Source of the DNA: Bolinopsis microptera | Lineage: Eukaryota; Ctenophora; Tentaculata; Lobata; Bolinopsidae | Assembly (NCBI RefSeq): GCF_026151205.1 | Contig: NC_087081.1 | Coordinates: 10,293,113-10,357,112, forward strand | DNA: 64,000 nucleotides | Direction of reading: 5' to 3' | Shown: positions 6,351-33,500 of the stretch, piece after piece | Layout of the letters: every line of letters begins with the position of its first letter | Numbering within the stretch: the first letter of the stretch is position 1 | Position numbers and translations under genes: made by a program | Notes under the pieces: generated by a model | What the model saw: only the letters and a program-made list of their open reading frames with translations | The model's database searches: none | Told to the model about the DNA's origin: nothing

Positions 6351-6874
6351 ATTTGCATTGCATATACATTGTTGTGAATTAATATACATGTAATTATCAT
6401 CACATATGATCACTGATATCTTTGCCACATGTTGTATACTTACCTCGTGCATGCGATACCGATCAAAAAGTGTTGCAGCGTGTGTCAACTCAATTGAGTG
6501 ACAATAAAAATTCACCCCAAGTTGTTGCTAAAATATTTTTACACTTTTTACACTTCACAGCGAAGCTTGGCAGTTGAATTTTTAAATAGCGCGCGCCACT
6601 TTTTATCGAAATATTGGCCCGCGGCAAAGTGCTGCAAATAATGTCCGTATTAAATAAAACATAAAATAGTAAATGCTATTACGGGCAAAAAATGCATTTA
6701 TATATATCGTCTCGTTTTATATATAGTGAAATGAATTCGAATTTCTATTACATACAAGTTGCAAAAATGGTAATTTCAAATATTCCACATTTCGTGATAA
6801 TTTTAAAATTGAATAAGTTGTTTCATGACAAGTATATCTCAGAACATGTTTGTTTTTAATAAATGGCGAAGACT

Positions 6875-6886
6875 CACAGTGGCTGC
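6875..6886 (+). repeat. Left terminal inverted repeat with CACAGTG heptamer
   Basis: CACAGTGGCTGC, immediately preceded by TSD AGACT (6870-6874). A 9-mer GCAAATTGC lies 11 bp beyond the heptamer, and AACTAAGTA starts 21 bp beyond it. Confidence 0.9.
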
Positions 6887-7865
6887 AAAAGCGCAAATTG
6901 CAAACTAAGTATTTTGCGCGTTTTCGCGCGTTTTGACAAGATATATATTATAAGCACTCTTTAAATGCTTTTCATAAATTCAAGAACAATCCTTTTAGTA
7001 TGATTTTTAATACAACACATAATTATTGGTCTAAATATCATTATCTAGCAATTTTGAAATTTCTAGCTTAACTGTAAATAGAGTTAAGTGCATTTTAAAA
7101 CAAGTAAAAGTCCTCCATTTTGTTTTGATCATAACATAGGATTTCAAGGATTTCAAAGGATTTCAAAGGATTTCAAAATAAAATGATCATTACAATAAAC
7201 ATTGTGTCGGATCTAAATTTCAAAAAATAAAGATAAAATGAAAGTCAAAAACGAAAAAACCGAAACCTGTCCTGAAAAATGCACGGTTGACGGTTATAGT
7301 CTAAAGAGTTTAAAAACCGAGCTATTCTAAAAAGGAATGTTCATGACGCGAACAACCAGTCCTTTGTGTCCATGCCTAAGATCCACACATAAATTCCACA
7401 CTAAATCAAAAGTGTGAAACGCACACGAAAAATAACACACTGTCGGATCCACGTTTCGCATGTTGAGTCCGTGAGTCATGTTGTAGGTCCTTCCTATCCT
7501 TTTCGTTTAACATATGAAATAAGTAAAACTAAATGGGCATATTTACACGAAATGATCAGAAATTTTCTAATTAACAATACAGTCAAAGTTTCAAGTATAG
7601 GCAGGAAAATATTCAGAACTAAAACGTTCATCAAAGGTACATACAAATTATACTAGATTGGTAAAATCATTGACTTTAAATTGAACAAAATGCGCGTGAC
7701 GCGCGCAATCTTATATGCGTAGGTACGTGTTTCTAACAATATAACCTACGCAAAGGTAAAGACTACCCATCTCTAAAACAAAGGAAATGTTTTAATAACT
7801 TCTACTGGCCTTAGAGCATAACTGCTCTTTCCACAAGCATGATCAAATAACTCCTTCCGCAGGAA

Positions 7866-8160
7866 ACTAACGCTCTCACAGGCTCCAAGTTTCATGATCA
7901 TGTAACCCTAAGTTTTGGTTTTGAATCGGACACTCAAAACAACGATATAAGAAGATCGGTCTACACGCTCACAGGCTACCACGTCTCGTGGGAACCCACG
8001 ATTTAATTTTGGATCGGACAATCAAAATACCGATATATATAAACAATAAAGGAGCGGCTTACACGCTCACAGGCTACCACTGACCACGTTTAGAGTAACC
8101 CAGGATTTGGTTAGGGTTCGGAAACTGAATGCAAGGATATAGGAGCGGTCTGCAGTGACG
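7866..8160. repeat. Three degenerate 95-98 bp tandem units in the transposon's left arm
   Basis: The motif CGCTC(T)CACAGGCT recurs at 7871, 7966 and 8064. Each copy is followed by a GATTT/TTGGATCGGA-type segment and a GATATA segment. The units may be subterminal repeats of the element. Confidence 0.7.
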
Positions 8161-8461
8161 TTACATGATTACAGGTATGGAAATATTCAGGAGCAGGACA
8201 TGGACACTGTGTGGTTCGAAATATAAATACTTAAGTGAGGGCCAGAGACAAGTTTCCGCTTATGACAGTACCTAGGCAACTGTGTATCCACTGTTTGATG
8301 ATTCCATTTAGCAGATTTAGAAGTAACACCCACCAGGAACACTGCATACTCCTACGAGTTGCACATAGCATGAGGCCATGATATCTCCTGGAAGTCCCTG
8401 TCTCTCCGTCTTTAACCCGACGGGGTTGCACCAGGGGTGATGGCAACAGAGCTTTCAGACT

Positions 8462-8514
8462 CTCGGAGTCTGTAGTCGATATCTATGTTTAAAGATATCG
8501 ACTATAGACTCCGA
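8462..8514. repeat. Hairpin just downstream of the RAG1-like gene
   Basis: 23-bp arms (CTCGGAGTCT start) with one mismatch and a 7-nt loop. It lies about 150 bp past the stop codon of the minus-strand gene. It could be a small fold-back insertion or an RNA-end structure, and its function is unknown. Confidence 0.75.
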
Positions 8515-8662
8515 GAAAGAAGAATGTAAAGCCCTAACCCAATTCTTAACTAAAGCATGCAATGAAATATCATATTCTTACAATATCATATCAAATCGTC
8601 GATACAGTTTTTAAAATGTTTAAATTCGAGTGTTGACTGACTTAGCACGTACATCTTCACTT

Positions 8663-11600
8663 TCAGTCATCTTCATCGCTGGATTCTGTAAATCCTCTAA
8701 TGGCCTTTTTCAAGAAATTTAGCCCGCCTAACTCCGAGGAACTTATAACGTCGGCTGGATATAAGGACTTGATCTTTTTAAGTTTACCGTTACTATGCCG
8801 TCCCTATAAAAGAATACAATTATAATCTTTGACTTGTATATAAAAATAAATGTCTATTTACAAGCGCAAAATTGTATCGTCTCAGATTTCTGTTTAGTGC
8901 TTTGGGACTAAATCGATAAATATATTAGAGAGACGCTGGAAGCTATAGATCAAAGAGTCCTTAAATTAGGGTGGAATTTATAGCTAGGTGCAGCATATTG
9001 CAACAGACTCTATGTCTGTAAGAAATTGGATTACCTCTTTTAAACTTGCTCTAGGAATTCCTTCAACAATGTGATTTAGGAACAGATCGCCACGCAAAAT
9101 CGATGTTTCTAGTGTCTGGCCCAGATTTTTGGCGTAGTTTCCAAGCCAAGACCGGGAACTCCTGTAATTTATACTGTTTATCAATTATGTAATAATCTCT
9201 GATCTACGTAATACGAAGAGAAACGAGACTTCAGAGATCTCCTGGATTATGCTGGAGCGTGAAAGAATAAATCTAGCAATTTTGGATCGGACGTACGTTA
9301 TTAAAATTTATTCTGCAATAAACGACGAAAAACGGTGATATTATTATTAATAAAAGTGCTTACCTTATATTTCGGACATCTTTTTGCATATATTCTATTC
9401 CCTCCTCCGACATATTTTTGAGGCCACGACATTTGTTGTTCTTTATAATTTCCCAGCTGTGTGCCAGAACCTGAGACAAAACTCATTTTAATAAGTTACT
9501 TAGTACTGGAAATGTAACTAAGTGTTAATTCTTAACTAAGTTATTCATTATTGGATTAGGACCAGCTACTGCTAGGAGAGCACCTGGGACTACTATGCAA
9601 TCTCCTCTGGTCCACTCAGCTAAATCATTAATAAATGATCGCGAAATCGATTGAATGTTATATGAGGAGTGACCTTGCCGAAAGACCGACGCAATTTAGA
9701 TTACACAGTAAACAAATGAACTGTTCATATCTGACTCACATCATGTAATGTTTCATTCATTCTTGCCCAGGGAAAATGATTTATTACTAGTATACCGATC
9801 GTGTGGCATAAATGTTTATAAACTGTCAGATCTATCTCTTTCCCCGTGTTAAGGACTCTAATGACTACATAGAGGAGCTCCGCGATCTTCCCCACTTTTT
9901 TTCCATCGCCTTCGTCTTTCAAAAGTGGCGGTAGGACGCTATAGGCATAACAAAGGAATTTCTTCGCGTGATTTCCTAAAATAAAATTAATTTTATCAAG
10001 AGGTTAGTGCAGTTTTGTTACATGTTTAGAATCTTAGCTCCCTTATTTCTATTTTATCGTTACATTAATTACTGTACTGCCGTTGTGCTGGTATTGCATG
10101 CTAATTATTAAAAGTAATAGTACAGGATGCTATGAATTTACAACAGCGTTTGTAAAATTAGTAATTACTAATTATGTATCTAGATTTAAACCTGTAAGAC
10201 CACTACCCGTATTCCCATGTCCAACATCCTTTAACGTCAGCCTCTGCGGTCCTTGCTTTAACTGAAGAAAGAAAACGATAACCTATTATATAGGACAAGA
10301 AAACTTATTACTATTAGTTAATGTAGGCACACAAACAAATATATGTTAAGGATGATATGGATTTAGTATGTTATTTTCGGATTGCTTAAAACTTAAAGTT
10401 TGTTAACTAATTTGTATATAATATATTTTAGTTAGCCACATTAGATTTTTATTTAATCATTAACCCGTTAACCGGCGATATAGCTTGCCAAATTAACTCA
10501 CCGCGACAAGAATTTTGTCCTCTTCAATCTTGAACTGAGCTTTTAGAAATTCTCCCCTCATCTCCCACGTTTTAGTTCCTGTATACGACTGAGTCGAATA
10601 ACTGCAAATTGTATTTTTAGCGATCATGAGTTAAGATTCTTGAACAAAACAGTAACAGCAAAATTGATAATTTGCTCGTATATCTTAGACTTAAGACGTT
10701 GTAAATCACAAAACAGTGCAGCGTGCACACACTACGCTCTTAAACATTGTTTATCAGTTATTTTGCTAATAGAAATATAATCAGGATCCAAACATTTTAG
10801 AGACGTCAATTATTTGTACAGTATCAGTGAAAAGTGCGATATAATGAAAGATACGATTAAATTCCTTCAAGCAATATACTTACATGTTTGCTTTTGTAGC
10901 AAGTTGAACCACCCATTTAGCGATATTAAGAGAAGCATGGGTAACGACCACGCCTTCCGGGAGACCATAAGGTATTTGTGTCCAACCGTCCCTTTCACCA
11001 CTTTTTTCGCTTACATCGATTAGTCCATTAGCTGCTAAATACTTTTTGTACTCCCCCATCTTTTCTTTTGTGTTGTATTCAATGAAAGAGTCCTGAAATA
11101 ATAACGACGCCCCGCGTGTGTTATTAAGATAACAGTGCCTCACAGTCACACAGACAAGGTGCCTCACACAGTAAAGGCTGATACATCCTTTGTGTAGTTT
11201 GTCGAACTTTCTTGCTTTGATACCGGACAACCCTCCGGTCACCGGCTACAGCTGCAGTTGGTCAAACTCACTGCAGTTGACTACTCGCCATCCAGATGGT
11301 CTGATATCTGATGACACTTCCGGCTCCACGGATAAACACAGCGAAGTAAGTAAATAATGAATAATTTTAGGGCATCAATAATCAAATCTTAATGATCACA
11401 GCTTAAAGTCAAAGTTTAACAAAAAATCGTACCTCAACCCTCACTCCTGCTGGGGTGTGGTAGTCTTCTATCGTGGTGCTGCAGTGGTAACAGTATGCCC
11501 CCCCTCTACCCATCATAGCCTTCCGCGACTTCCCGTCCACCATGCATGTCGAGTACTCACTGTACACTATCACCTTCCTCTCGCCCATTTTAAACGTATA

Positions 11601-14600
11601 AACTTCCTTTCCGTCGGGGTATCTGCCGATTATCATTAACACGGTTGAAATTACGGTTTGAAATATCGTTATGCCATATATGGCATCTTGGAATTGGAGT
11701 TTCATCGAATATTCAACATGCTTAATATATAAATTAAATATATTAAAATAAATAAGGATATTCAAGATAAACTAAATGACGGACATCAACAAATGTACCG
11801 ATGTACGATTGTACGCTAATGATTAAAGTTAAGTTCCTTAAGTAGATATAGCCACAAATCATATAATTATAAATTTCGATTAGATGTTGTACTAACTTCT
11901 CCATTAGGAATTTTTGGAGATCTGCAGACTCTGCTTCCATGACCAAACTTAACACCTTCATAATTTTATATGAGTTTGGTTTGGTGCATTTGTACAGCTC
12001 TTTCATGGGAGTCGCGTCATTTTTACCGTCGCCCAACTGCAAAGTAGAAACATTTAGCACTCTAGTGTTCTTAGACTTAGAGTTAGTTAGTTTACTGGGC
12101 CGCGCTCTATTTATGAACATGATAGCCTGAGGTCCCCAGGTAATTAGTTAGTATGAAATATTTTTATAGACAAGAACTAAATTCTTTCTCCGGTAATCCA
12201 ATTAAGACGTCCGCAACACTCTAATTCAGAACTTCTCCCTCAATATGCTCCCTGCTCCAAAATAAACAAATAACGCGGCATTCCTCTTCCAACAACTATT
12301 TCAGTGACCCGTAGGCTTAAAGTAAACATGAAACATAACACCTATTTAGACCGCAGGAGAAGAAAACAGGCCTAAGTGGCATAAAACTGGAGAATAAAGG
12401 GCGCCAAAGATGGTCACGTAACTATACAGGTCAACGTGGCACTAGAAGGTAGACTTTGAAATATCATTGAATCAGATTCAGAATCAAATTTAAGGAAATG
12501 ATATTATTGTAAGAATTCCTGAAACAAATAATATCATGTAGCTTACGTCATTTTCTACGGCAGTTGAACAAGTTTTTAGGACTATCGCAAATGTCTGGCA
12601 TGACTTCAGACTATGACCCACTTTTGAGAGTTTTATGGATTCTTGATCAAAAATTTGGGGATGCGAACTGGCACCATCAAATCCTGTAAAGATATCAATA
12701 TTAAAACTACAAATGATAATGATAAACCCCGCCAACCAAAGGATACACCGCCATCACCAACAACTCACTGCTGGAATGGAATTTACAGAAAGATCTGAAC
12801 CAGGAATGAATGGAGGACGTACTAGTTACTGTTGTCCAGAAGCGACCCTGCCAAACCAACCTAAAGTAAGTAAACTATACTCATGGAATGCAGCGGAATA
12901 TTAAACACTTAGAATATTGCGATTTGCAAGTATTAACTTATTAACACAAACATACCCTGATTAAATTGCATGTGAAGGATAAGATTGGTGTCTGGAGGCG
13001 TGTCCCTGACACATATCTTGTTAAGCTCGATGAGCTGTTTAATGGTAAGAAGAACCATATGCCGCCGCTTTACAAAAACCCCAACCGGCAATTTTTCTTC
13101 ATTCCCTGTGTCAATGAACCTGTAGAAATAATAAGTGATTATAAGTTAAATGCGATATTGGAATGAAATGTGATATTCAATTCTATGAGACATGCTCATG
13201 ATCATACGAGCAAAGTGCCACAAACTTTATAAACCTTAAATTAGTTTCATGATTACGGAAGGAATAGAATGTGTAGGTATCAAACGGTGTTAATGTTAGA
13301 TGCGGTCGTAAAAACCGATACTTCCTGGGAAAATTAACTTTAAAACATGTACTGTAAATATACTATAAATTGTAAGTTGACAATCGTGCTTCTATTAACC
13401 TGTCCATATGATAGCCTGGCAGGCGCCTCTTCTTTTCTTTGCGGATAACTCTTTCTCCAGGTACATACAACCCGAACTTCTTTGTAAATTTGGAGATGCC
13501 GTTCGAAGTTCGCTTGGTGGCGTTGAGTTGTACCATGTGAGCCTGTATTAAATCATTGTTTGATTTCAGCTGTGACTAAATATGTAATCCGGTTTCTTGA
13601 ATAAAGTGGGGCTCACTCGTACGACGTTCTCACGCTTATATTGAGGCTGCAAAAAGAGGAAAAAAGGCAGCGATCCTTATAACGGGAAGCATATAATCGA
13701 GTTGACAACGGTGGAACAAATACTTACAAGAGTTTCAATCCCGGATGGACCCTTTTTAATATTTTCACTGCAATACTTCTTTTTCAGCTTGAGGAATATC
13801 GTCTTCCTCACAGATCTAGGCGTTTGCTATGTTAAGAATATTGATATAATTAGTAAATTAAGTCAATGATGACATTAAATGATTGGGTAAAGCGTGACAT
13901 TCTCTTTCCTTAGTTATAAAAAAATTGGACCAACCTGAATTATAGAGTTTTGGATTCGGTCAAAACTTTTTGTTATTCGTTTTCTTTGTCCTTCACGAGT
14001 CATTTCAGAAAATTGACACCTTGGGCCACGGGAGACTACTGGATTTACATTTCCCTTCAGATCAAATACAACGTCATCCAAAGGCGGGTAGTTTTTTTTT
14101 TTTCGTTTTTAAATCACTCAGTTTCTTCCGCTAAAAATTAGGTTAACGTTAAACACAGCTCAAATTGGTGTGAGTAAGAGTCAACCACGATCATATAATT
14201 GGAAATTAGTATGCAGTACCTATAACTAACCTACTTGTCTTGTCATGATTTGGAGCAATATGGTAGCAACAGCCTTATAATTATCTGACAAAATTATCTA
14301 ACAAATGTTATGTTATGATTGTGAAAACTTACATACGCCACAATCCTGTTTTTTGCACATCTTGAGACCCTTTTGTGATCGGAATCCAATAACAAGTTCT
14401 CCTGTTCTATAAAGGCATTCATAATGTGAGTCTCCGTAACTTTCACATTGTGTCCAACTTCTTGTTTACATATTTTAATGATCGAGTTCATTCTGCCGTG
14501 AGTTAGAGCTAGGAGAGGTTTACTTATCTTACGCCTCTTCCCACTTCCATTTTTCGGGGTGCTAGCCATCCTATTCCGATTAGAGCTGCTTCCGCCTAAA

Positions 14601-17600
14601 AATGTTCTGTTATATAGGACGAATCGGCCAAAATAATAAAATACCCGGTACCATCCAATAAATCATTGTTAATTCATTAAAATGAATTTGTATTTGTGAA
14701 ACCTGTGAAATAGCGGCCTTGGTCCGTCGGAACTATAGTAAAATGCAGGGTAATTCGGTAATCTGTCGATGGTCACTTAAGGTACAGTTGGTGTTACGGC
14801 ACGGTTAACGCCGAAATAACGGAGACTCAATGCACGGTGTGTTCACGCTAGAGGCACGTTTAAGTTTTAACGCACAATATCAATATGGTTACTTAAGGAA
14901 AGGACATTTAACCGTGCATTTAATTAAGTGACCATCGATAGAATTCCAAATTGCCCTTACCTGATATCGTTTCCTCATCAGAATCAGATGAACTTTCTTC
15001 TCGATATCCATTCTGACCTAGATTCTTCAGAAATACTGGTTCTGGCGTAACATTTGTCTCAGAATTCATTGACTGACCTGATAAAATCACCAAGCTTTTA
15101 TTATTATATATTATTGAAAATTATTAAATAAATAGAGTTTCTACTAGAGTGACCTCGACTGCAAAGCCATTAATAAACCAATCGGCAGTCGGCAACTTTC
15201 CTCTCACCCGGAGTAAGCTGCAACCCTAGGGACTAGAGGATAGCAAGAAGTACAAACGGAACATTATTTTGATTATTGTACACGGCACAGTGGGCTACCA
15301 TGCTAGCATAGGCCTAAAATCGACTTTCTTAAATTTCTTTGAAAATAAGCTTTCCTTATTGTAAAACGCTAGCCCGATTTCATGCAAAAAACCGTAATTA
15401 AAAACTTTGCAAGATGCCAAAATGGCGTCGCGTGAAAAAATAGCATTTTTCACAGTCAAGAAATTTTGCCTTTTTTAGCCAAAAATTGCCTAATATTTAT
15501 TATTTTGGGCTAAAATGCTTGATCAAGGCAGTTTTTAATAATTGAAATACAGTATAGTACTTCAGAATACTCAGCCATCTAAAAAAAAATGTGTGACTTT
15601 AACATTTTCACCTGATTTTTGACCGCGCCTTTTTTATGGCGTGTATTTTAGGCAATTTTTGGGGTATTTAACGACAGAAATCGTTGTTGGTTTGCAATAG
15701 TTCGGTATAATGCATGGTATCATCAGAAAGCTTAGACAATTCCCTATCAGATGCAATAAGAATCACTTTGGGCAGTTTTGGGCAACTCTGTTTACAAAAT
15801 TAAGAAACTCAAAAATTGGGTAAAATTTGCTTCATTTTTAGATAATTTATGAGCTCAATTTTGCTATAAAATTGACATATTTTAGTTATTCTCCATGTTT
15901 GTGGCATTTTTTGCACCCTAGACCAGATGCATATGGATGAAAAATCAAAATATCACAATTATTATAGTTAAAATTGATAAAAATCCAAAAAATCGTGATT
16001 TTAAACGAAATTTTTGAAAATAACAGGAACAATTTTGGTGTTTCAGAAAATTTTGGTCATATAAATAGGCACAACTTTTGTTCTGATCAATATTTTTTCA
16101 TAATTCAAAAAGATTTGAGTTCCTAAGATAGCTGTCCTTCGTTTACAGTTCATAAAAGAGCTTTAAAATTGATTAAACCTCTAAAAAAACAACTTTTCCT
16201 GGGATCAGCCTCCTATTTTTGTACTACAAGATTGCTCAAAATCGGCCCAAAATTTTTTTCTGAGACATTTTCGGCCCTGTAAATGATTGGAATCGTATTT
16301 TTGTACCCAAATTACCTTAGAAACAAAGTTAGGGGCATGTGTGATGGTCTAAAATACCCTATGCTAGCATGACCCCCACTCACAGCCCACTGTGCACGGG
16401 CAATTCATAATCATTGTATTTTCGTTTCGTGTGTGGGACTGTCATGGGACATCTTTCATATCACGTCCGATGAAAGTGGACTCACTACTAGGCTATCCAT
16501 TATCGGTATGAAATCTTTTATCTAGATAAACAGATAAAAATTTAGGTTTTATCTAGATAAAACCGATAAAACCGATAATTTTTCTGCTGAAGGCCAAAGC
16601 CAAAATGTTTTCCAAATTTCACAAAAACTGATTGTCGACTTTTATTACTGTTTACCAGTAATCTTGCTAAAGTACAATTTCCTTTCTTTTGAAAATATTA
16701 GAGCATCAGTTTTCTTCTCCGGGGAACAATAGTGTACCAGTTCTCTTCAAAACAGTAGACCAACGGTTTGTCTTCTCCTAAGAACAGTCGTGTACCAGTT
16801 CTCTTCAAAACAGTAGATCACCGGTTTCCTTCTCCTAAAAACAGTAGTGTACCAGTTCTCTTCAAAACAGTAGACCAAGGGTTTCCTTCTCCTGAGAACA
16901 GTAACGCACTAGTTCTCTTCAAAACAGTAGACCACCGGTTTCCTTCTCCTGAGAACAGTAACGCACTAGTTCTCTTCAAAACAGTAGACCACCGGTTTCC
17001 TTCTCCTGAAAACAGTAGTGCAACAGTTCTCTTCAAAACAGTAGACCACTGGTATCCTTCTCCTGAGAACAGTAATGCACTAGTTCTCTTCAAAACATTA
17101 GACCACCGGTTTCCTTCTCCTGAGAACAGTAACGCACTAGTTCTCTTCAAAACAGTAGACCACCGGTTTCCTTCTCCTGAGAACAGTAGTGCACCAGTTC
17201 TTTTCAAAACAGTAGACCAAGGGTTTCCTTCTCCTGAGAACAGTAACGCACTAGTTCTCTTCAAAACAGTAGACCACCGGTTTCCTTCTCCTGAGAACAG
17301 TAACGCACTAGTTCTCTTCAAAACAGTAGATCACCGGTTTCCTTCTCCTGAGAACAGTAGTGCACCAGTTCTCTTCAAAACATTAGACCACCGGTTTCCT
17401 TCTCCTGAGAACAGTAGTGCACCAGTTCTCTTCAAAACAGTAGACCACCGGTTTCCTTCTCCTGAGAACAGTAGTGCACCAGTTCTCTTCAAAACATTAG
17501 ACCACCGGTTTCCTTCTCCTGAGAACAGTAGTGCACCAGTTCTCTTCAAAACAGTGGACCACCGGTATCCTTCTCTTGAGAACAGTAGTGCAACAAATAC

Positions 17601-18911
17601 CAATTCTCCTCGAAACAGTAAAACATTTAAAGTGATTCAGTGAACCGTTTCCTTATCCTGTGGATAACTTGGAGCAACAGATTCCTTCTCCTGAAGACAA
17701 TGTTTCACGCCTAGAACACTTACGGAATTTAATTGAGTGCCCTGCCGCCTGCCGGTATTTTTGACTCTTGTTAACAGTAACATGCTCGTTCCTGTCTCCA
17801 GAATGGTTCAAGTAAGGTAGAACGCCAGCACCCTAGCCTCAACTTCAAGATAACAATGTCAATAACTTTCTCTAGACTTCTACAGTTCTACAGTTCTACA
17901 GTTCTACAGTTCCATAGGTATACAAATGTAAATAAACCTCTTAAGCTCACATTTAAGTAAACTACCTCTTCTATCATACTATAAAACGTTTGGGACTGTT
18001 TCTTGGATTACTTGGGAAGGCAAAAAACACTAATATTTCTTTAAAATTTTACGGTATTGTGGCAGTTTTTTCGGTAATTTCTAGTGAATTTTTATACCGA
18101 TAAAAATATGTTTTATCTAGATAAACAGATAACCTTTTTTAACGAATTATCGGAGATAATTATCGGTAACGATTATCGGAGTGGATAGCCTACTCACTAC
18201 GAGACTCTATTTGTGAGAGATTTCACGGATTGAGTTGTCACAGTCTGATCGTACTCCATGCTTAGTATTGCCCGTAATGTTCTGACTTGACCGGTCAATT
18301 ACAAATATCTCTATTAATATTATAATCATACCTTTTGAGATAGACTGAAGTATTATATCTCTATATCCAGCTATATCGTCCACGTTAGTTTCGATTTGAT
18401 CTAGTACATTACTTTCATTAAACTCTGTATCGGATTCGGACCCAGTCGACTCTCTTTCAATATCCATTATTTCTTGTATCTCTTGATTCGCTAAACAAAA
18501 GTAGTTTCAGATGTCTAAAAAATCCATAACTAAAGAGCTTTATTAATCAAATTCGATCGAAATTTTAATTAATACTGTAATACATTGTAATTAATGCAAA
18601 TGGCATAAAAGTTAAACGGGCAACGAAATTTTTACGGCTTTTTAATCTAAAGTACCGCACGCTGGTAAGCATTTGCAGTGTAACTGTAATCCACGACCGA
18701 CCTATAAAATATTATTATTAATATTTGTGCCAAAACATATAAATATATTAAAAATAAACTATAAAGCGTGTTCTATTTACACTTCAACATTTTACTCACA
18801 AAGGATGCGTTGGGCAGTCCTACTCTTGTCTCGTAAGGAGTATTTCCTGATCTCCTTGTGAGAATTAGAAGTAGAAGTTTCTTTGGTAGAAGTCATACTC
18901 GCAGACTCCAT
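8663..18911 (-). CDS. RAG1-like / Transib-family DDE recombinase, 20 exons
   Basis: Exons (plus coordinates, transcribed right to left): 18800-18911, 18332-18490, 14961-15077, 14333-14595, 13935-14130, 13728-13826, 13617-13646, 13400-13542, 12956-13119, 12758-12821, 12547-12706, 11897-12036, 11433-11622, 10884-11092, 10502-10601, 10192-10261, 9740-9975, 9364-9470, 9035-9161, 8663-8803. All use GT-AG and their phases chain, except for one extra base in an A12 run in exon 5 (T12 on the plus strand, 14092-14103). Allowing for that base the product is about 941 residues. RAG1-like landmarks (my numbering): LPGYH (RAG1 has the same motif), first Asp in GFDGAS (459), KPNS...ES block, second Asp in MVDGK (578), zinc cysteines CYHC (593, 596), TGNHAKKFL, zinc histidines LHDVLAH (816, 821), catalytic Glu in SEEGIE (843). 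The N-terminal 150 residues are acidic and serine-rich, with a basic GKRRK stretch. I see no RING finger. Family call strong; RAG1L versus Transib subclass undecided. The exon 10/11 junction uses a 51-nt intron and is the least certain. Confidence 0.87.
9548..9690. mobile_element. Probable decayed SINE tail
   Basis: GGTCCACTCAGCTAAAT and the following GAAATCG...GTTATATGAGGAG segment resemble the 3' part of the tRNA-derived SINE at 41162-41410. It lies in an intron of the RAG1-like gene. Confidence 0.45.
12090..12143. repeat. Dispersed GGGGACCTCAGGC repeat, copy in RAG1-like intron
   Basis: The stretch from GGGCCGCGCTC to GATAGCCTGAGGTCCCCAGG matches copies at about 49228-49330, 49580-49660, 49797-49870 and 50355-50430. 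It lies in the intron between exons 12547-12706 and 11897-12036. Confidence 0.7.
15286..16394. mobile_element. Small element with CACAGTGGGCT ends and 5-bp TSD (non-autonomous RAG/Transib-like)
   Basis: Left end CACAGTGGGCT, right end its inverse complement; the flanking 5 bp are identical (CACGG at 15281-15285 and 16395-16399). A second shared block, CATGCTAGCATAGG, lies inside each end, 6 bp past the heptamer on the left and 16 bp past it on the right. The 1.1 kb interior is AT-rich with no open frame of note. CAC-initiated ends plus a 5-bp duplication match RAG/Transib transposons, and the first 8 bp match the ends of the large element that surrounds it. Mobilisation by that element's recombinase is an inference. 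Confidence 0.8.
16489..18192. mobile_element. hAT-type non-autonomous element, copy 1 (1,704 bp)
   Basis: Ends TAGGCTATCCA / TGGATAGCCTA, flanked by a perfect 8-bp duplication CTCACTAC (16481-16488, 18193-18200), the hAT hallmark. Subterminal TTTATCTAGATAAA and CCGATAA palindromes occur at both ends. The centre is a minisatellite of about 15 57-bp units. No transposase is encoded. It lies in the intron between the second and third exons of the RAG1-like gene. It is nearly identical to the copy at 27768-29471. Confidence 0.93.
16710..17600. repeat. 57-bp minisatellite inside hAT copy 1
   Basis: Units contain GGTTTCCTTCTCCTGAGAAC and TTCTCTTCAAAACAGTAGA. Because 57 is a multiple of 3, long frames stay open on both strands. 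They start at TTG rather than ATG on the plus strand and are not taken as genes. Confidence 0.95.
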
Positions 18912-19639
18912 TTTTAACTAAAAAGTACAACTTTACAAGCCGGTAACCACATAAATCAACAGTAAAAAGCGGAATATTTGTGGTTGATAAAGTAATGGTG
19001 TTAACAGGGAATAATAGAAACCTGTGGATAATTGTTAAAATACGTGACTCATAAGTCCGAAAATCCAAGAAGGGGTGTTTTAAAACTTCAGACGAATCTG
19101 AACTATTCTATGGACAAGTCTAAGCGGATGGTCTACAAAACGAAAATTATGCTGACTGCATAAGTATGTGGCCCTAAAGAACAAAGAAGAAAGTAGTATA
19201 ATGTAGCATTTATAAATTCGGAAAACGTACTGTAACAATTTAAAGCAATGCGAAAGCTTTTTATGCATTGACGTGCGACCAACATTGGTTGATCAGGCGT
19301 TGATCGCGCTTTGGAATAGTACGCAAAGAAATGACCCTAGATTGAGCTCTGGAAATCTAATTTTTGAGTGGAGCTCTTGTGGAAGAGGTATTGCAAATTA
19401 AGGCTGCCTGGCATGTGGAACTGTGGAAGAGGCAGAAAAGTTTGCGGAGAACATTGGTCCTAGCTGTTTTTTGTTTTATCAAAAATTGTGTTGAATGTGC
19501 GCGGCGTGATCGCGCATTTTAAAAATATTTGTGCAAATATGGCAAAATCATACGTTCGCGTTGTCAATGATAAATTGACGTATAAGGTCTACTTAGTTCG
19601 ACTGACGGCGGGGCGCCAAATTTGTGTGCTAGTTGCAGC

Positions 19640-19651
19640 GCAGCCACTGTG
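19640..19651 (-). repeat. Right terminal inverted repeat with CACAGTG heptamer
   Basis: Inverse complement of the left 12 bp, followed by TSD AGACT (19652-19656). Reading inward, a 9-mer ACAAATTTG lies 19 bp past the heptamer, and AACTAAGTA starts 46 bp past it. Confidence 0.9.
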
Positions 19652-20099
19652 AGACTGTATAAAATTGGAAATATTAACAGCTCTGTTAATGTACGAATTA
19701 AAAATAATGTATTTGAAAGTCAATGAAACAAGAAATTTCTATGAAACAATAAATTTAATTTTAGCACATTTTACAGAATAAAAAGATGTAAAACAATTCA
19801 TAAAATAAAATGCCCATTCGGTGTATGATTTTTTGTCCTTGACTGCTAGTTTGGTTTTGGAAGGACAGGTAACTAACGGGGTAAGGAATGCGCGTGGTGA
19901 TGATGTTTATGTTGTTATTCCTGATTTGATTTGTTACCTCAATACACAAGGTTTCAAAAAAAGGCGACTAAGCGATCAATATTTATTACTCAAGAAGTAA
20001 CCCAAAAGTAATTCAATTGGAGAACAAAAACTTCACTCACATGCTTTTCTTAACTTTTAGTTGAATTTGCATTGAATGGCTTACATGTCTCCCCATTCA

Positions 20100-21531: not shown

Positions 21532-24500
21532 ATGCCTCGGACAGGGGACTCCATGCGTGGTTTGGCTGTCTTTATTGCAGATATAAGAAACTGTAAGTGT
21601 GATTTTGTTCTAAAGCAATAGTCGCTTTTGAATTTTGTACAATTCAACAAGAGTTTTGGAGTAACATTGGTACAACTGGTTGATTTTCAAATGGTTATAT
21701 TGTTTTGTAATCGAGTTTACAATCTTGCTGATAGTTTTTCTTCAGGCAAATCTAGGGAGCAAGAGAAAAAGAGAATTAATAAAGAATTGGCTAATATACG
21801 CTCTAAATTTAAAGGTAAATTTAAATCAACACATTATATTGTTTAAGTTCATAATATTTTATTGGTGTGTCTCTATTGCAATTGGTCTATTATTGTTGGC
21901 TTAATTAACCAAACTTAATTTTCCAGGGGATAAACAATTAGATGGGTATCAGAAAAAGAAATACGTTTGTAAACTGTTATTTATATTTTTATTGGGGAAT
22001 GATGTGGATTTTGGACACATGGAAGCAGTAGATCTGTTAGCCTCCAACAAGTACACCGAGAAGCAGATAGTAAGTTGATTTTATTAGGCAGTGAAGATGC
22101 TCATTTCTTATTTGTAGTTCAGTAGTGTTATTTGAGACACCGTTTTTCGCTAGTGTGTAAAATAGAAATAATTTTGCTGGCTAGACTGCAGACTTCATAT
22201 TGCAATTGTTATATATATAATATTGTCAAATTCGGTCAAATTATGGAGTTTTTTGTAGGTATTATGAAAACTCCAATATTTGTTTTCCAATAATTTCACA
22301 TCAATGTTTTATTTTCAGGGCTATTTATTCATATCAGTCATGATGCATCATTCAAACGATCTCTACAAACTTGTAATCCAAGCAATTAAGAATGATCTGT
22401 CAAGCAAGGACCCAGTTCACATTTGCCTTGCTCTCACTTGCATCGCTAACATTGGAACACCCGAAATGGCAGAGGAAATCGGAGATGAAGTCCCCAAAAT
22501 CTTAACGTCCCCGTAAGTTTGCTCATTATTTTTCTACATCAAGTTCTTTATAATCTATTGTTATGATTTGTACTACATTTATAGGCCTTGTTACATCAAT
22601 AACATTCAATTAAATATCTGAGAAATATAAGTTTAAGTCATAACAATTCACTGATGCAGACGGACAAACTCACTAACAAACAAATACACCCGCACACTAA
22701 CAAACAAATACACCAGCACACTAACAAACAAGTACACCTGCACACTAACAAACAAATACACCCGCACACTAACAAACAAATACACCCGCACACTAACAAA
22801 CAAATACGCACTAACAAACAAGTACACCTGCACACTAACAAACAAATACACCCGCACACTAGAGTGGTTCATTTTACCAAAAGTCGTTCAAATAATTAGA
22901 AATCATATCTTATTAGTTGCTCTATAGGATCAGGAACGACCAAAAAATTTTTTTTGACTCTAGTGTTCCGGATATGGTCCGCACATGCCACGCCCATTTT
23001 TAGTATAATAATTTCCTTGTTCCACGAAGATATTCAATTCCTCTGGTAACCAAACCCCTTCTGGCCTACTTCTGAACATATGAAGATTCGAAAACCAAGT
23101 CTACCTAAATCTGAACTTTCTGACTGCGTTGGAGAGTGGAGAACAATCGAGAAATGATAACCAGTCTCAGGATATAATCAAAGTTCAATTTGGAATCTTT
23201 TTGTATTTTTTTATGCTGTGTGTAAGTTTGGTGTGAAGCATTATTTTCTTTTCTAAAGCTAACAGTGTTAAACTAAATTGATATCAGTTAAAGATGATAT
23301 ATTTTAACAGGTAAAATTAATATAATTGACGATTAAGTGATATAAGAATGTGTTCAGGACTCTGAAAGTGTCACACTCCTATAGTAATGGTATGAAATGG
23401 TTAACTTTAGTCAAGGTCTCATGTCTCTACGACGTTCACTTTTGGCGCAGTGAATCCCGCGCTTCAGCGCAATGCGCAAACTCCTGCAGGAACTTCCCGA
23501 CATTGTAGAGACCTGAGACCTCGACTAAAGTTAACCATTTTCTACTGTTTATATTAGAGGAGCACACATTCAGAACTCCTTCCATACTCCTTCATGACTA
23601 AATTGACGATTTAGACAATTTTACCTGTATAAGAAACGCTATAAAAATGGGCGTGGCATGTGCGGACCATATCCGGAACACTAGAGTCAAAAAAAATTTT
23701 TTGGTCGTTCCTGATCCTATAGAGCAACTAATAAGATATGATTTCTAATTATTTGAACAATTTTTGGTAAAATGAACCACTCTACGGCGCACACTAACAA
23801 ACAAATACACCTGCACACTAACAAACAAGTTCACCCGCACACTAACAAACAAATACACCCGCACACTAACAAACAAATACACCCGCACACTAACAAACAA
23901 ATACACCCGCACACTAACAAACAAGTACACCTGCACACTAACAAACAAATACACCCGCACACTAACAAACAAATACACCCGCACACTAACAAACAAATAC
24001 ACCCGCACACTAACAAACAAGTTCACCCGCACACTAACAAACAAATACACCCGCACACTAACAAACAAGTTCACCCGCACACTAACAAACAAGTACACCC
24101 GCACACTAACAAACAAATACACTCGCACACTAACAAACAAGTACACCCGCACACTAACAAACAAATACACCCGCACACTAACAAACAAGTACACCCGCAC
24201 ACTAACAAACAAATACACCCGCACACTAACAAACAAATACACCCGCACACTAACAAACAAGTTCACCCGCACACTAACAAACAAATACACCCGCACACTA
24301 ACAAACAAGTTCACCCGCACACTAACAAACAAGTACACCCGCACATTAACAAACAAATACACCCGCACACTAACAAACAAATACACCCGCACACTAACAA
24401 ACAAATACACCCGCACACTAACAAACAAGTACACCCGCACACTAACAAACAAAAATGTGACACTCACAAACACTCACAAACACACACATACAAACAGACA

Positions 24501-27500: not shown

Positions 27501-30500
27501 GTAAGTAGGAGCGTTTTACACTGCCTAATGTACAGTCTATAATATGTCAAACATGTCACGTATAATATTCTTTAAATAGAGTGTGGCATTTGAATTTCCT
27601 AATTATTTAAGTGACCTTAAGGGGGGGGGGGGGGGGGGGGGGGCCAATGGGTATTTTTTGTGAAACTTGATTTCGAGATAGCAAGTTGACCAACAAACTA
27701 GGACCAGTGACCGAACTTTTGAGGGGGTCCCGGACCCCAACCGCCAAACGGTGCGCGCAGGGCAGCCTAGGCTATCCATTATCGGTATGAAATCTTTTAT
27801 CTAGATAAACAGATAAAAATTTAGGTTTTATCTAGATAAAACCGATAAAACCGATAATTTTTCTGCTGAAGGCCAAAGCCAAAATGTTTTCCAAATTTCA
27901 CAAAAACTGATTGTCGACTTTTATTACTGTTTACCAGTAATCTTGCTAAAGTACAATTTCCTTTCTTTTGAAAATATTAGAGCATCAGTTTTCTTCTCCG
28001 GGGAACAATAGTGTACCAGTTCTCTTCAAAACAGTAGACCAACGGTTTGTCGTCTCCTAAGAACAGTCGTGTACCAGTTCTCTTCAAAACAGTAGATCAC
28101 CGGTTTCCTTCTCCTAAAAACAGTAGTGTACCAGTTCTCTTCAAAACAGTAGACCAAGGGTTTCCTTCTCCTGAGAACAGTAACGCACTAGTTCTCTTCA
28201 AAACAGTAGACCACCGGTTTCCTTCTCCTGAGAACAGTAACGCACTAGTTCTCTTCAAAACAGTAGACCACCGGTTTCCTTCTCCTGAAAACAGTAGTGC
28301 AACAGTTCTCTTCAAAACAGTAGACCACTGGTATCCTTCTCCTGAGAACAGTAATGCACTAGTTCTCTTCAAAACATTAGACCACCGGTTTCCTTCTCCT
28401 GAGAACAGTAACGCACTAGTTCTCTTCAAAACAGTAGACCACCGGTTTCCTTCTCCTGAGAACAGTAGTGCACCAGTTCTTTTCAAAACAGTAGACCAAG
28501 GGTTTCCTTCTCCTGAGAACAGTAACGCACTAGTTCTCTTCAAAACAGTAGACCACCGGTTTCCTTCTCCTGAGAACAGTAACGCACTAGTTCTCTTCAA
28601 AACAGTAGATCACCGGTTTCCTTCTCCTGAGAACAGTAGTGCACCAGTTCTCTTCAAAACATTAGACCACCGGTTTCCTTCTCCTGAGAACAGTAGTGCA
28701 CCAGTTCTCTTCAAAACAGTAGACCACCGGTTTCCTTCTCCTGAGAACAGTAGTGCACCAGTTCTCTTCAAAACATTAGACCACCGGTTTCCTTCTCCTG
28801 AGAACAGTAGTGCACCAGTTCTCTTCAAAACAGTGGACCACCGGTATCCTTCTCTTGAGAACAGTAGTGCAACAAATACCAATTCTCCTCGAAACAGTAA
28901 AACATTTAAAGTGATTCAGTGAACCGTTTCCTTATCCTGTGGATAACTTGGAGCAACAGATTCCTTCTCCTGAAGACAATGTTTCACGCCTAGAACACTT
29001 ACGGAATTTAATTGAGTGCCCTGCCGCCTGCCGGTATTTTTGACTCTTGTTAACAGTAACATGCTCGTTCCTGTCTCCAGAATGGTTCAAGTAAGGTAGA
29101 ACGCCAGCACCCTAGCCTCAACTTCAAGATAACAATGTCAATAACTTTCTCTAGACTTCTACAGTTCTACAGTTCTACAGTTCTACAGTTCCATAGGTAT
29201 ACAAATGTAAATAAACCTCTTAAGCTCACATTTAAGTAAACTACCTCTTCTATCATACTATAAAACGTTTGGGACTGTTTCTTGGATTACTTGGGAAGGC
29301 AAAAAACACTAATATTTCTTTAAAATTTTACGGTATTGTGGCAGTTTTTTCGGTAATTTCTAGTGAATTTTTATACCGATAAAAATATGTTTTATCTAGA
29401 TAAACAGATAACCTTTTTTAACGAATTATCGGAGATAATTATCGGTAACGATTATCGGAGTGGATAGCCTAGGGCAGCCACGCCCATATTTTGTCCAAAT
29501 TAGGTCCAATTTAGCCAAATACCCTGAACTTGCCCAAAAGCCAGGTTTATAGTGCTCTACTTGTAGCTAGTGCAGTGGTCTCCTGAACTCGTATATGAAA
29601 TTTCATCAAGATTGGACAAAAAATGACTGAGTTATGGGCCAAAAACCATATGCCCATATTTGGGCATACGCACCAAATTTGGTAGATTTTGTCCCATAAA
29701 TTGGTCACTATCAATATAAAATATGAATATCTATATAAAATATGAAAATCAAATAAAATATGAAAATCATATAAAATATGAAAATCAATATAAAATATGA
29801 AAATCATATAAAATATGAAAATCAATATAAAATATGAACCTATGTTAACATTAGATATTTATAAATATTTAATGTTAACATAAATACAAAATATGATGAC
29901 TGTCAGTTATTGTTGTATATTATGTATAATGTATATTAGTATATTGTGATAATCATCTATTAGCCAGTAATATACAGTACGCTCTCTCCCTCACTCTCCT
30001 CTGTACTTATAGAGGGAGGGAAGGTGCCGGGGGAGGGGACCACATAAAGAGGGGACCACAGAGGAGAGGGGACCGCGGGGGGATCGGGAGGAGGGCAGAT
30101 ATTTACCTCGGTGTATTTAAAGTCATTGTTGTTTTACCTGTATCTTGTAACGTAATGATTAAATCACTTTTGTTTCAGATATCTGGCGCTGGAAAGTTTA
30201 ACTAAGTTGGCTGTGTCTGATTTTAGTAGGAAAGCTGTTATGAAACATCAGGAGACCGTTGTGCAAGCTTTGAAGGTACGTTCTCAGGGGGGCTCACGTT
30301 CTCAGGGGGGGGGGGCCGGGGGGCTCACGTTCTCAGAGGGGGAGGGCTCATGTTCTACGGGGGGGGGGGGGGGGGCTCACGTTCTCAACATTGTTCCCTT
30401 TAGTAATGTAACACCCCTGTTCCATGCCCAATGAACGATGAACGAGGATGCACACGAGGATATGATTTCCATAATTTCGTCGAAAATTCATATAGGTATC

Positions 30501-33500
30501 CTCGCGGTGATCCTCGTGCGATCCTTGTGCGATCCTCGTGGGATCCTCGCGATGATACTAGGGGGTGCACGATAAAAATAAACTTGCTCGGATTTTAAAA
30601 ATTGTTGTACCACTGTTTTCTAGAGACTGTTAAAATTTTCACAATACCAAATTTGTCATACCTTTTTGGAAAGATCAGTGATTTATTCGAATTTCATCAT
30701 CGTGCGATGAGGAGAAAACCCTCGCGAGGATAGAAATGTCCAATAATTTCATCGCGAGGAAATCATCCTCGTGGGAAATTGTGCACGATGATGATTTACC
30801 CTCGCGAGGATGGGTATTTGCGCGAGGATTTGGAGGCAATATTCGACGAATTTATGGAACTCGTATCCTCGTGCCCATCCTCGTTCATCGTTCATTGGGC
30901 ATGGAACAGGGGTGTTACACGTGTCAGTTAGATTGCAATTAGATGGTCAATGTAATTATCATGTGGGATATGTGGGATATGTGGGATATGTGGGATATGT
31001 GGGATATGCAATGTAGGATATGTGGGATATGTGGGATATGTGGGATATGTGGGATATGTGGGATATGTGGGATATGTGGGATATGTGGGATATGTGGGAT
31101 ATGAGGGATATGTGGGATATGTGGGATATGTGGGATATGTGGGATATGTGGGATATGTGGGATATGTGGGATATGTGAGATATGTGGGATATGTGGGATA
31201 TGTGGGATATGTGGGATATGTGGGATATGTGGGATATGTGGGATATGTAGGATATGTGGGATATGTGGGATATGTGGGATATGTGGGATATGTGGGATAT
31301 GTGAGATATGTGGGATATGTGGGATATGTGGGATATGTGGGATATGTGGGATATGTGGGATATGTAGGATATGTGGGATATGTGGGATATGTGGGATTGT
31401 TGGGATATGTGGGATATGTGGGATATGTGGGATATGTGGGATATGTGGGATATGTGAGATATGTGGGATATGTGGGATATGTGGGATATGTGGGATATGT
31501 GGGATATGTGGGATATGTGGGATATGTAGCTACTAAGTATAAAATTCTGAGTCTAGCTTGTACTTGATGAAGTCCAGAGAGCCATGTTTAATTTCATGTT
31601 TTATACGGGCATTCAGCTGCTAAATTCACTCAAAACACAATTCTTGACAACCACAATACACTTTAAATGTAAAATGTAAACCACTTAATTACACATAACT
31701 AATTACTCGCCAGAATGAGAGGGACCTGTCGGTGCGGCAGCGCGCGGTAGACCTGCTTTACGCAATGTGTGACAGGGAACAAGCAGAGGAGATTGTTGGA
31801 GAGCTGCTGGCTTATCTGGAGAAAGCAGATTATTCCATCAGAGAGGAACTGGTATGAATACACTTTCATGAGATCGATTAATTAATTTATAAATCGATTA
31901 ATCCATCATTGAGGATTTTTAAGGAACATGTCGTAAATGATACTTATTTTCCAACTCTATTCCAATTTAATGATTTACCACGAAATTTTGGGGAATGGAT
32001 GAGAACCACGGTAAATCGGAGTTTTGTTTTTTTTTGGGCAAAAATTAGTCCAGAATGGTTGACGTGAGTCAGACACGTAGAGTTATTTCTAATAAATATT
32101 TAAAAGGTAAGGTATGTAGTCTAGTGGCAATCAAATAGGTTTTCACTTAATTAATTGCCAATAGATTGTTAAAACAATCGGTAATCACACTGTATATATT
32201 AACATACACTATATATCGATAACCTTATATCTCCATTCGATAAACGGTGTATGTAGATATACGGTGTGATTTGACACTGTATATGGACATGTGATCCTTG
32301 TTATTATCAATATAATGCACCACATGAACTCTTGTCTGTGTAGTGCCTTTGCTCCTCTACCTGTTATCAAGAGGGGATCACATCGACTGTAACAAGCGTG
32401 CTGATACGGTGGATCATCGGCAAAAAGGATCGTATCATCAATAGCCATACAACGTGCGTGTCGATATACAGTGTATGTCGATATACAGTGTGTAAATCAA
32501 AACAATCTGATATCTCTCAACTGAAGCCTGACACTTTTAATTGTATAGCGTCAATTTCAGGACAAGGCTGAAATTATGTTGAATTTGTAATTTGATTTTG
32601 TGTTACAGCAAGCTGATTGCCAAACGCTGTCATGTGTCAAAACAAATACCCCCACTTTCACTAAGTCTAACATCAGAAAACAAACATGACTCTCGTGAAC
32701 TAACCAAGTCAACTTATTAGTCAATTACCAGGTTTTAAAGATAGCGATTTTGGCGGAAAAGTTCGCCCAGGACTACAAGTGGTACGTTGACGTTGTCTTA
32801 AACTTGATAAGGATAGCGGGAGATTACATTGCTGACGAGGTATGTGCCAAATTATACCTTGCACGCTTTATAAGATTGTTGGATTCTACCTTGCTTATTT
32901 ATATTAGGTTTGCGTTAAATTCTGCCTTGCATATTTTATTAGATCGTTGTATTGACAACTCATCGGTAATATATTTTGGTAATAGCAGAGGTTTCGTGAC
33001 TTAACGACCGATGCGCGATTGTTTTTGACTGTCAGCTCTTAAAAGGAATAATAAGTTACCGATGTCATGATAACTATGACCAGAAATTGTCAATTTAGAA
33101 GTGGTTTCGCACTCGTTCATGGATCAATTCTTAGGTGTGGTACCGTGTGACGCAGATTGTGATCAACAGAGACGATATTCAAGCCTACGCTGCTAAGACG
33201 GTATTCGAGGTAAGGCGCTTCCTGCATAACTCAATATAAACAAAGCTCGTTTAGATTCCAGGTCAGATGACAGTATACAATAGGTCATTATGTAGCTATT
33301 GCTAGTTTTTAGAGAGAATATTTGATGAAAGCGCTATAAACCCAGCACTTTAAAAGTGCGCGTTCGCGCGCGCGCACGCCTCAGTTTGATTGGCAAAGAG
33401 GGCGCGACTAAAATAAAATTGAGTAATAGTGGATAAGTGTTGTGATATTGGAGATGATATATTAAACGGTTAAACAATGGAACTTCTGCCATGAGTAGAA

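Follow-up and report, generated by a model that had tools for sequence, protein, structure and literature searches.

A recently mobile transposon family with CACAGTG ends in the ctenophore Bolinopsis microptera, probably a divergent single-gene Transib-type lineage

Introduction

Which branch of the RAG1/Transib superfamily is represented by a transposon that sits in a ctenophore genome, ends in the heptamer of V(D)J recombination signals, and has one recognizable gene of its own? The question arises at positions 6875-19651 of a 64,000-nt stretch of Bolinopsis microptera contig NC_087081.1 (the whole of this stretch is called the window), where an element of 12,777 bp is read directly from the sequence. 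An original prediction made from the letters described a complete RAG-like transposon encoding a RAG1-family recombinase and supposed a non-bilaterian host, a supposition that the ctenophore origin of the DNA bears out. The element and its relatives have paired ends, 5-bp duplications, near-identical copies at different sites, and homologous transposase motifs. Most probably it is a cut-and-paste transposon of the RAG1/Transib superfamily belonging to a divergent, single-gene Transib-type lineage with a zinc-domain segment like that of subgroup I Transibs, and not a RAG1L-RAG2L element.

Subgroup I Transibs are described in PMC9435367 as having an alpha11-alpha12 segment, CTT1 and asymmetric ends, and subgroup II as having lost the segment and having CTT2. 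The same paper reports Transibs from ctenophores, and names bacteria, cnidarians, and the ctenophores Mnemiopsis and Pleurobrachia as subgroup I hosts. Cnidarian RAGL pairs are described in an excerpt of PMC7204232, and TransibSU in an excerpt of PMC4411706. Among the matches listed in a search of open-licence literature on Transib, RAG1, ctenophore and cnidarian transposons, which did not cover Repbase, there was no description of a family with CACAGTGGCTGC ends.

Results

Ends, duplication and extent

The boundaries of the element are defined by four features.

6870..6874, no strand: left target-site duplication AGACT, 5 bp (read directly; flank comparison)
6875..6886, plus strand: left terminal inverted repeat (TIR) CACAGTGGCTGC with heptamer CACAGTG (direct reading; 12-mer search)
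19640..19651, minus strand: right TIR CACAGTGGCTGC (direct reading; 12-mer search)
19652..19656, no strand: right target-site duplication AGACT, 5 bp (read directly; flank comparison)

The inverted ends are perfect over 12 bp and start with CAC on both sides, and direct reading recovers both them and the AGACT outside each just as the original prediction gave them. Searching the window for CACAGTGGCTGC with up to two mismatches returns two occurrences, both exact; 2.28 are expected at that threshold, and this count alone is no excess over chance. Beyond the 12 bp the left and right ends have weak gapped similarity (p 0.001). A bipartite, asymmetric arrangement of the ends was considered for the family and dropped (p 0.175 in the copy at L014, weak signal in other copies). 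Comparison by eye with the recombination signal sequence (RSS) consensus, taken from an excerpt of PMC8289069, found no nonamer spaced 12 or 23 bp away from the heptamer at either end. The identity of the heptamer with that of V(D)J signals, to which the prediction drew attention, is real. It does not point to any special link with V(D)J recombination, because a second RAG1/Transib-type family of the same genome also has CACAGTG.

Other copies and recent movement

Genome-wide searches used the B. microptera assembly of 264.65 Mb, of which 13 contigs of 15.2-26.2 Mb make up 258.07 Mb (97.5%). Counts of genome matches are lower bounds, and L- and C-numbers denote loci and contigs of this genome. 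Exact CACAGTGGCTGC occurs 55 times, versus 3 for a reversed-pattern control. Eleven pairs of exact ends lie 4.1-12.8 kb apart in the correct orientation, and a script found identical 5-bp flanks at all 11 and a 6-bp duplication at none (0/11). Two further pairs, each with one imperfect end, have the identical 5-bp flanks GGACG and TGATA when compared by eye. There are thus at least 13 correctly oriented end pairs, window copy included, and a perfect 5-bp duplication flanks 13/13, which confirms the prediction of a complete transposon with a 5-bp target duplication. The left 263 bp of the element matches at least 18 places, again counting the window copy: the 11 exact pairs, the two further pairs, three full-length left ends for which no partner end was found, and two diverged fragments without a terminus. 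Among eight loci drawn from the 12-mer search, four are homologous to the element (L004, L005, L006 and L008) and four are not.

Six copies (L011-L015 and L018, the last carrying an insert) are 99.73-99.94% identical over a body of about 5.3 kb and lie at different sites with different duplications; since they are so similar at different sites, the family must have moved recently. Their overlap with the window copy is mostly confined to about 2.2 kb at one end plus 0.35 kb at the opposite end, and from this pattern they look like non-autonomous relatives of it.

The original prediction had proposed other copies and empty sites as its check; the copies were found. A joined-flank search for the empty site of the window copy, in which 40 of 617 first-look candidates were scored, found none and was uninformative, with two half-matches at the element's own locus and a high-copy repeat in the right flank. 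That interspersed repeat, at about 19720-19896 of the window, is 92-97% identical at at least 38 places. Nine of the 55 exact CACAGTGGCTGC matches fall in one cluster (C8:7095696-7096829), on one strand and at spacings that are multiples of 17 bp; judged by position, this is probably a tandem array and not a set of transposon ends.

The transposase gene

The gene runs on the minus strand from 18467 to 8663, in a model of 18 exons and about 868 codons. The exons below all come from this model and lie on the minus strand; further support is given in brackets.

18332..18467, minus: exon 1, start codon; weaker support (matched in L016, L021, L061)
14961..15077, minus: exon 2, acidic region; weaker support (no third-codon-position excess)
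14333..14595, minus: exon 3, basic region
13935..14130, minus: exon 4, with the sole frame break of the model, in an A-run
13728..13826, minus: exon 5
13617..13646, minus: exon 6, followed by a 74-nt intron
13400..13542, minus: exon 7
12956..13119, minus: exon 8 (copy comparison)
12547..12683, minus: exon 9, motif GFDGASSH (core alignment)
11897..12036, minus: exon 10, MEAES, at the place of KET in Transib and DES in RAG1 (alignment)
11433..11622, minus: exon 11, ZnC2-like motif GRGGAYCYHC (core alignment)
10884..11092, minus: exon 12, segment from ZnC2 to the conserved His, of RAG1L-like length (length comparison)
10502..10601, minus: exon 13
10192..10261, minus: exon 14, GNTGSGLTG, compare GSGTTxxGN of HzTransib (core alignment)
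9740..9975, minus: exon 15
9364..9470, minus: exon 16, SEEGIEY and the region of the second zinc-ligand His (alignments)
9035..9161, minus: exon 17 (99% identity over 118 bp in L011 and L012)
8663..8803, minus: exon 18, stop; acidic C-terminus, no Cx2Cx3GHx4C motif

All 17 introns of the model begin with GT and end with AG, and the frame carries through exons 1-3 and again through exons 5-18, with a stop only as the last codon. We take GFDGASSH to be the region of the first catalytic Asp, and SEEGIEY lines up with the RAG1 SEGNE region, presumably the holder of the last RAG1 catalytic acidic residue. Where the window and L014 can be compared over parts of three exons, the exons are 93.3% identical with 0 gap columns, versus 89.3% with 158 gap columns for the same stretch outside the exons. 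Differences from L057 number 12, 20 and 27 of about 219 each at the first, second and third codon positions, with 28 gap columns, and for one exon L058 gives 6/0/11 of 53 and L059 gives 6/0/10. The weakest part of the model is exons 1 and 2, because neither has an excess of third-position differences and gap columns number 21 for exon 1 in L016, L021 and L061 alike.

These comparisons bear on the possibility that the window holds a non-autonomous or dead element with nothing more than a decayed transposase gene. Such an element would be consistent with the frame break, explicable by either decay or faulty assembly, with the silence of Pfam on the window protein, and with the fact that most of the gene is missing from the other copies examined. 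Against decay stand the 17 of 17 GT-AG introns and exons that are free of gaps relative to L014 in a stretch otherwise broken by gap columns; moreover, about 868 codons contain just one break, and it falls in a homopolymer, a place where the assembly may have erred. We hold a non-autonomous or dead element to be a possibility to keep in mind, though on the unlikely side. The acidic C-terminus encoded at 8663-8803 has a parallel in vertebrate RAG1 tails, which are likewise acidic according to an excerpt of PMC7204232; this is possibly a coincidence.

Homology of the transposase

Homology of the window protein was assessed by tblastn, genome search and profile. A 773-aa version, with exons 1 and 2 left out, was searched alone against solved structures up to E 10. 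HzTransib was the only significant match (E 1.1e-6), amphioxus RAG1L was marginal (E 0.16), and no RAG1 match appeared. Profiles were built from the window protein together with the L009 and L010 transposases, two relatives from the same genome that are both Pfam RAG1 matches. The full three-sequence profile scored HzTransib at 107 bits, amphioxus RAG1L at 83 and zebrafish RAG1 at 57. In the genome search the window protein matched L010 with 29% identity over query residues 424-702 (E 1.1e-12), and aligned with each other the two are 28% identical in the C-terminal half, 24% from end to end and 23.8% in 520 columns of the core. Core identity to each of five references is 20-24% and is highest to L009/L010; the values are 21.1% for HzTransib, 20.6% for RAG1L and 20.1% for RAG1, and RAG1L and RAG1 are 37.7% identical to each other. 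Pfam searches of seven separate window open reading frames (ORFs) gave no RAG1 match.

The core alignment contains the window motifs GFDGAS, MEAES, CYHC, LHDVLAH and SEEGIEY, and GFDGAS, AES/KET and GSGLTGN are closer to HzTransib than to RAG1. The idea that L009 and L010 are without a catalytic residue was rejected, since HzTransib shows KET at the same place. From ZnC2 to the conserved His the window protein has 68 residues, amphioxus RAG1L has 61 and HzTransib about 30; the last figure comes from printed chain numbers, and the alpha11-alpha12 segment is judged by length alone. Scans of genome contigs, viral contigs and plasmids found no bacterial or viral relatives to serve as outgroups.

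Searches for a RAG2 partner

The element has one gene recognized as its own, the transposase, and no adjacent convergent RAG2L among the ORFs listed or scanned. Outside the gene, 24 ORFs were listed (12 of at least 45 aa and 12 of at least 60 aa, some overlapping exons or the nested element described below), and the 10 that were scanned with Pfam gave no kelch or other convincing match. Genome-wide, PF03089 had no match, but controls were also silent, so that absence is not shown; PF13341 had 56 matches, none over the cut-off (best E 0.0113). The prediction that the sole gene inside is a RAG1-family recombinase holds for the one gene recognized and for the superfamily, and is not supported for the RAG1/RAG1L branch.

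Placement in the superfamily

The core tree has six rows, two of which are RAG (BbRAG1L and DrRAG1), the others including the window protein, HzTransib and L009/L010. BbRAG1L and DrRAG1 are split from the rest with support of 100/99, leaving the window protein outside the pair; its grouping with HzTransib has support of 54/47 and came with a long-branch warning. In the approximately unbiased (AU) test neither a position as sister to RAG1+RAG1L (p 0.357) nor one with L009/L010 (p 0.293) is rejected. A phylogeny of the core, which the original prediction proposed as a further check, here places the protein outside the RAG1+RAG1L pair and allows it to be sister to that pair. Membership of the RAG1/RAG1L branch itself is not supported, given the 100/99 split, and no RAG2L, CTT1 or nonamer was found to accompany it.

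A true RAGL element of the RAG1L lineage that has lost RAG2L is the reading to which these data give the least room. The RAG1L-like length of the zinc-domain segment, the RSS heptamer, the near-tie between RAG1L and Transib in one profile search, and the sister position left standing by the AU test would all fit it. The strongly supported RAG1+RAG1L pair, the Transib-like motifs without CTT1, the better Transib matches in the full profile and single-protein searches, and the RAG2 searches, within the limits given above, argue that it is quite improbable. Also doubtful, if less so, is a reading of the element as a deep lineage of its own within the superfamily, with either RAG1/RAG1L or all Transibs as its sister. 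It would account for a protein that is about equidistant from five references and has neither CTT1 nor the short zinc domain of the HzTransib type, but the branch is long, the references are few, and the highest identity is to L009/L010.

Several points weigh against a Transib-type assignment with a functional gene. The C-terminal-half profile gives nearly equal scores to HzTransib (70.8 bits) and RAG1L (68.5), with zebrafish RAG1 at 50.1, and part of what drives both profiles comes from L009 and L010. Pfam has no match to the assembled window protein, its RAG1 model included, and the modelled C-terminus lacks CTT1 (Cx2Cx3GHx4C), a mark of subgroup I. With six rows and long branches, placements with Transib, with L009/L010 and as sister to RAG1+RAG1L are not distinguished. 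The window copy may lack a full protein, given the frame break in exon 4, and the excess of differences at third codon positions is modest as a whole, with none in exons 1 and 2.

A second family and further relatives

The L010 element (L055:4664-8590, contig C3) is complete, with 3,927 bp, TATCT duplications, CACAGTGGGCT ends and heptamer CACAGTG. Its transposase gene (C3:4783385-4784602) has two exons and is open, and the CTT1 motif CKHCDMRGHSRRWC (Cx2Cx3GHx4C) is present. The ends are clearly bipartite, with a 15-bp second block whose distance from the end is 13 bp on one side and 23 bp on the opposite side; this 10-bp offset recalls the 12/23 RSS difference and the 4/13-bp spacers of AanRAGL (PMC9435367). 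A genome search with the L010 protein listed 41 matches, many of which are broken or only fragments, and NCBIfam had no match to L010 or L009.

At the L009 locus (L053:6384-9517, contig C2) the transposase ORF has no CTT1 tail; near it, on the opposite strand and beyond a CACAGTGGGCC end, is a CTT1-like exon, CEECKIKGHSYRYC. An open frame of 388 aa at C6:5382032-5383024 is 30% identical to the L010 transposase and, by this similarity, probably represents a further family.

Nested and neighbouring repeats

One other element lies within the 12.8 kb.

16489..18192, no strand: nested hAT-like element in intron 1, with TIR TAGGCTATCC, 8-bp duplication CTCACTAC and a 57-bp tandem array

It is counted in the 12.8 kb, yet is no part of the RAG1/Transib-type element proper. 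A second hAT-like copy at 27768-29471, with TIR TAGGCTATCC and 8-bp duplication GGGCAGCC, is 99.94% identical to it over 1.7 kb, and the 57-bp tandem array is present in both. Units of 24 bp and 9 bp form long tandem arrays at 22671-24453 and 30961-31527 of the window. An Rfam scan of the window gave no match. Mitochondrial cox1 was not matched in the assembly, and neither were miR-2022 and let-7 patterns at up to one mismatch, a negative of little weight since those two patterns had no positive control.

Discussion

Going by what is known of the family, the transposase of about 868 codons from the 18-exon gene would bind the CACAGTGGCTGC ends and cut next to CAC. The excised DNA would insert at staggered cuts 5 bp apart, as papers describe for Transib and RAG, and an autonomous copy of the same type would mobilise the derivatives of 4-5 kb in trans.

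A bolder proposal is that a deep RAG1/Transib lineage, mobile in recent times and hitherto undescribed, exists in ctenophores, possibly as sister to RAG1/RAG1L, with CACAGTG ends and a RAG1L-sized zinc domain and without RAG2 or CTT1. We think this unlikely; if it were true, the RSS heptamer would be older than RAG2, as would the RAG2-docking segment, and both would go back to the base of the animals. The Transib-type lineage that we favor is of value in its own right as a clean, recently mobile RAG1/Transib family in the lineage placed as sister to all other animals in an excerpt of PMC10232365. The claim is limited by the fact that Transibs are already known from ctenophores (PMC9435367). 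Available in this one genome are numerous copies whose ends are intact, a nearly intact gene rich in introns, and a second family whose transposase is open and whose end blocks are shifted by about one helical turn. Together these resources allow a direct test of ancestral RAG features, namely the heptamer, the spacer asymmetry, the RAG2-docking segment and the CTT.

Comparison with known systems

The element resembles HzTransib, an insect Transib of subgroup II, in its single transposase gene and its GFDGAS, KET/AES and GSGTTxxGN motifs, and resembles Transibs as the papers describe them in its CAC-type ends and 5-bp duplications. It differs from HzTransib in the protein, with about 21% identity, in the zinc-domain segment of 68 versus about 30 residues, and in having 18 exons. 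With subgroup I Transibs (PMC9435367) it shares a zinc-domain segment retained by length, a non-bilaterian host, and the lack of any RAG2L found; set against the descriptions of that subgroup, the window protein is without CTT1 and the inner ends are weakly alike. We call the element a variant because it mixes the features of the subgroups in this way: a 68-residue segment, no CTT1, and ends that are weakly alike. The L010 family has the same CACAGTG heptamer, a 5-bp duplication and a homologous transposase, but the proteins are 24-29% identical, varying with the alignment, and L010 has two exons, CTT1 and an offset 15-bp block. Relative to RAGL elements (ProtoRAG and others) and vertebrate RAG1, the window element has no RAG2L found, no CTT1, no 12/23 nonamer, 20-21% protein identity, and a position outside the RAG1+RAG1L pair. 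What it has in common with RAGL elements and with vertebrate RAG1 and its RSS is the heptamer, the 5-bp duplications and the conserved core motifs.

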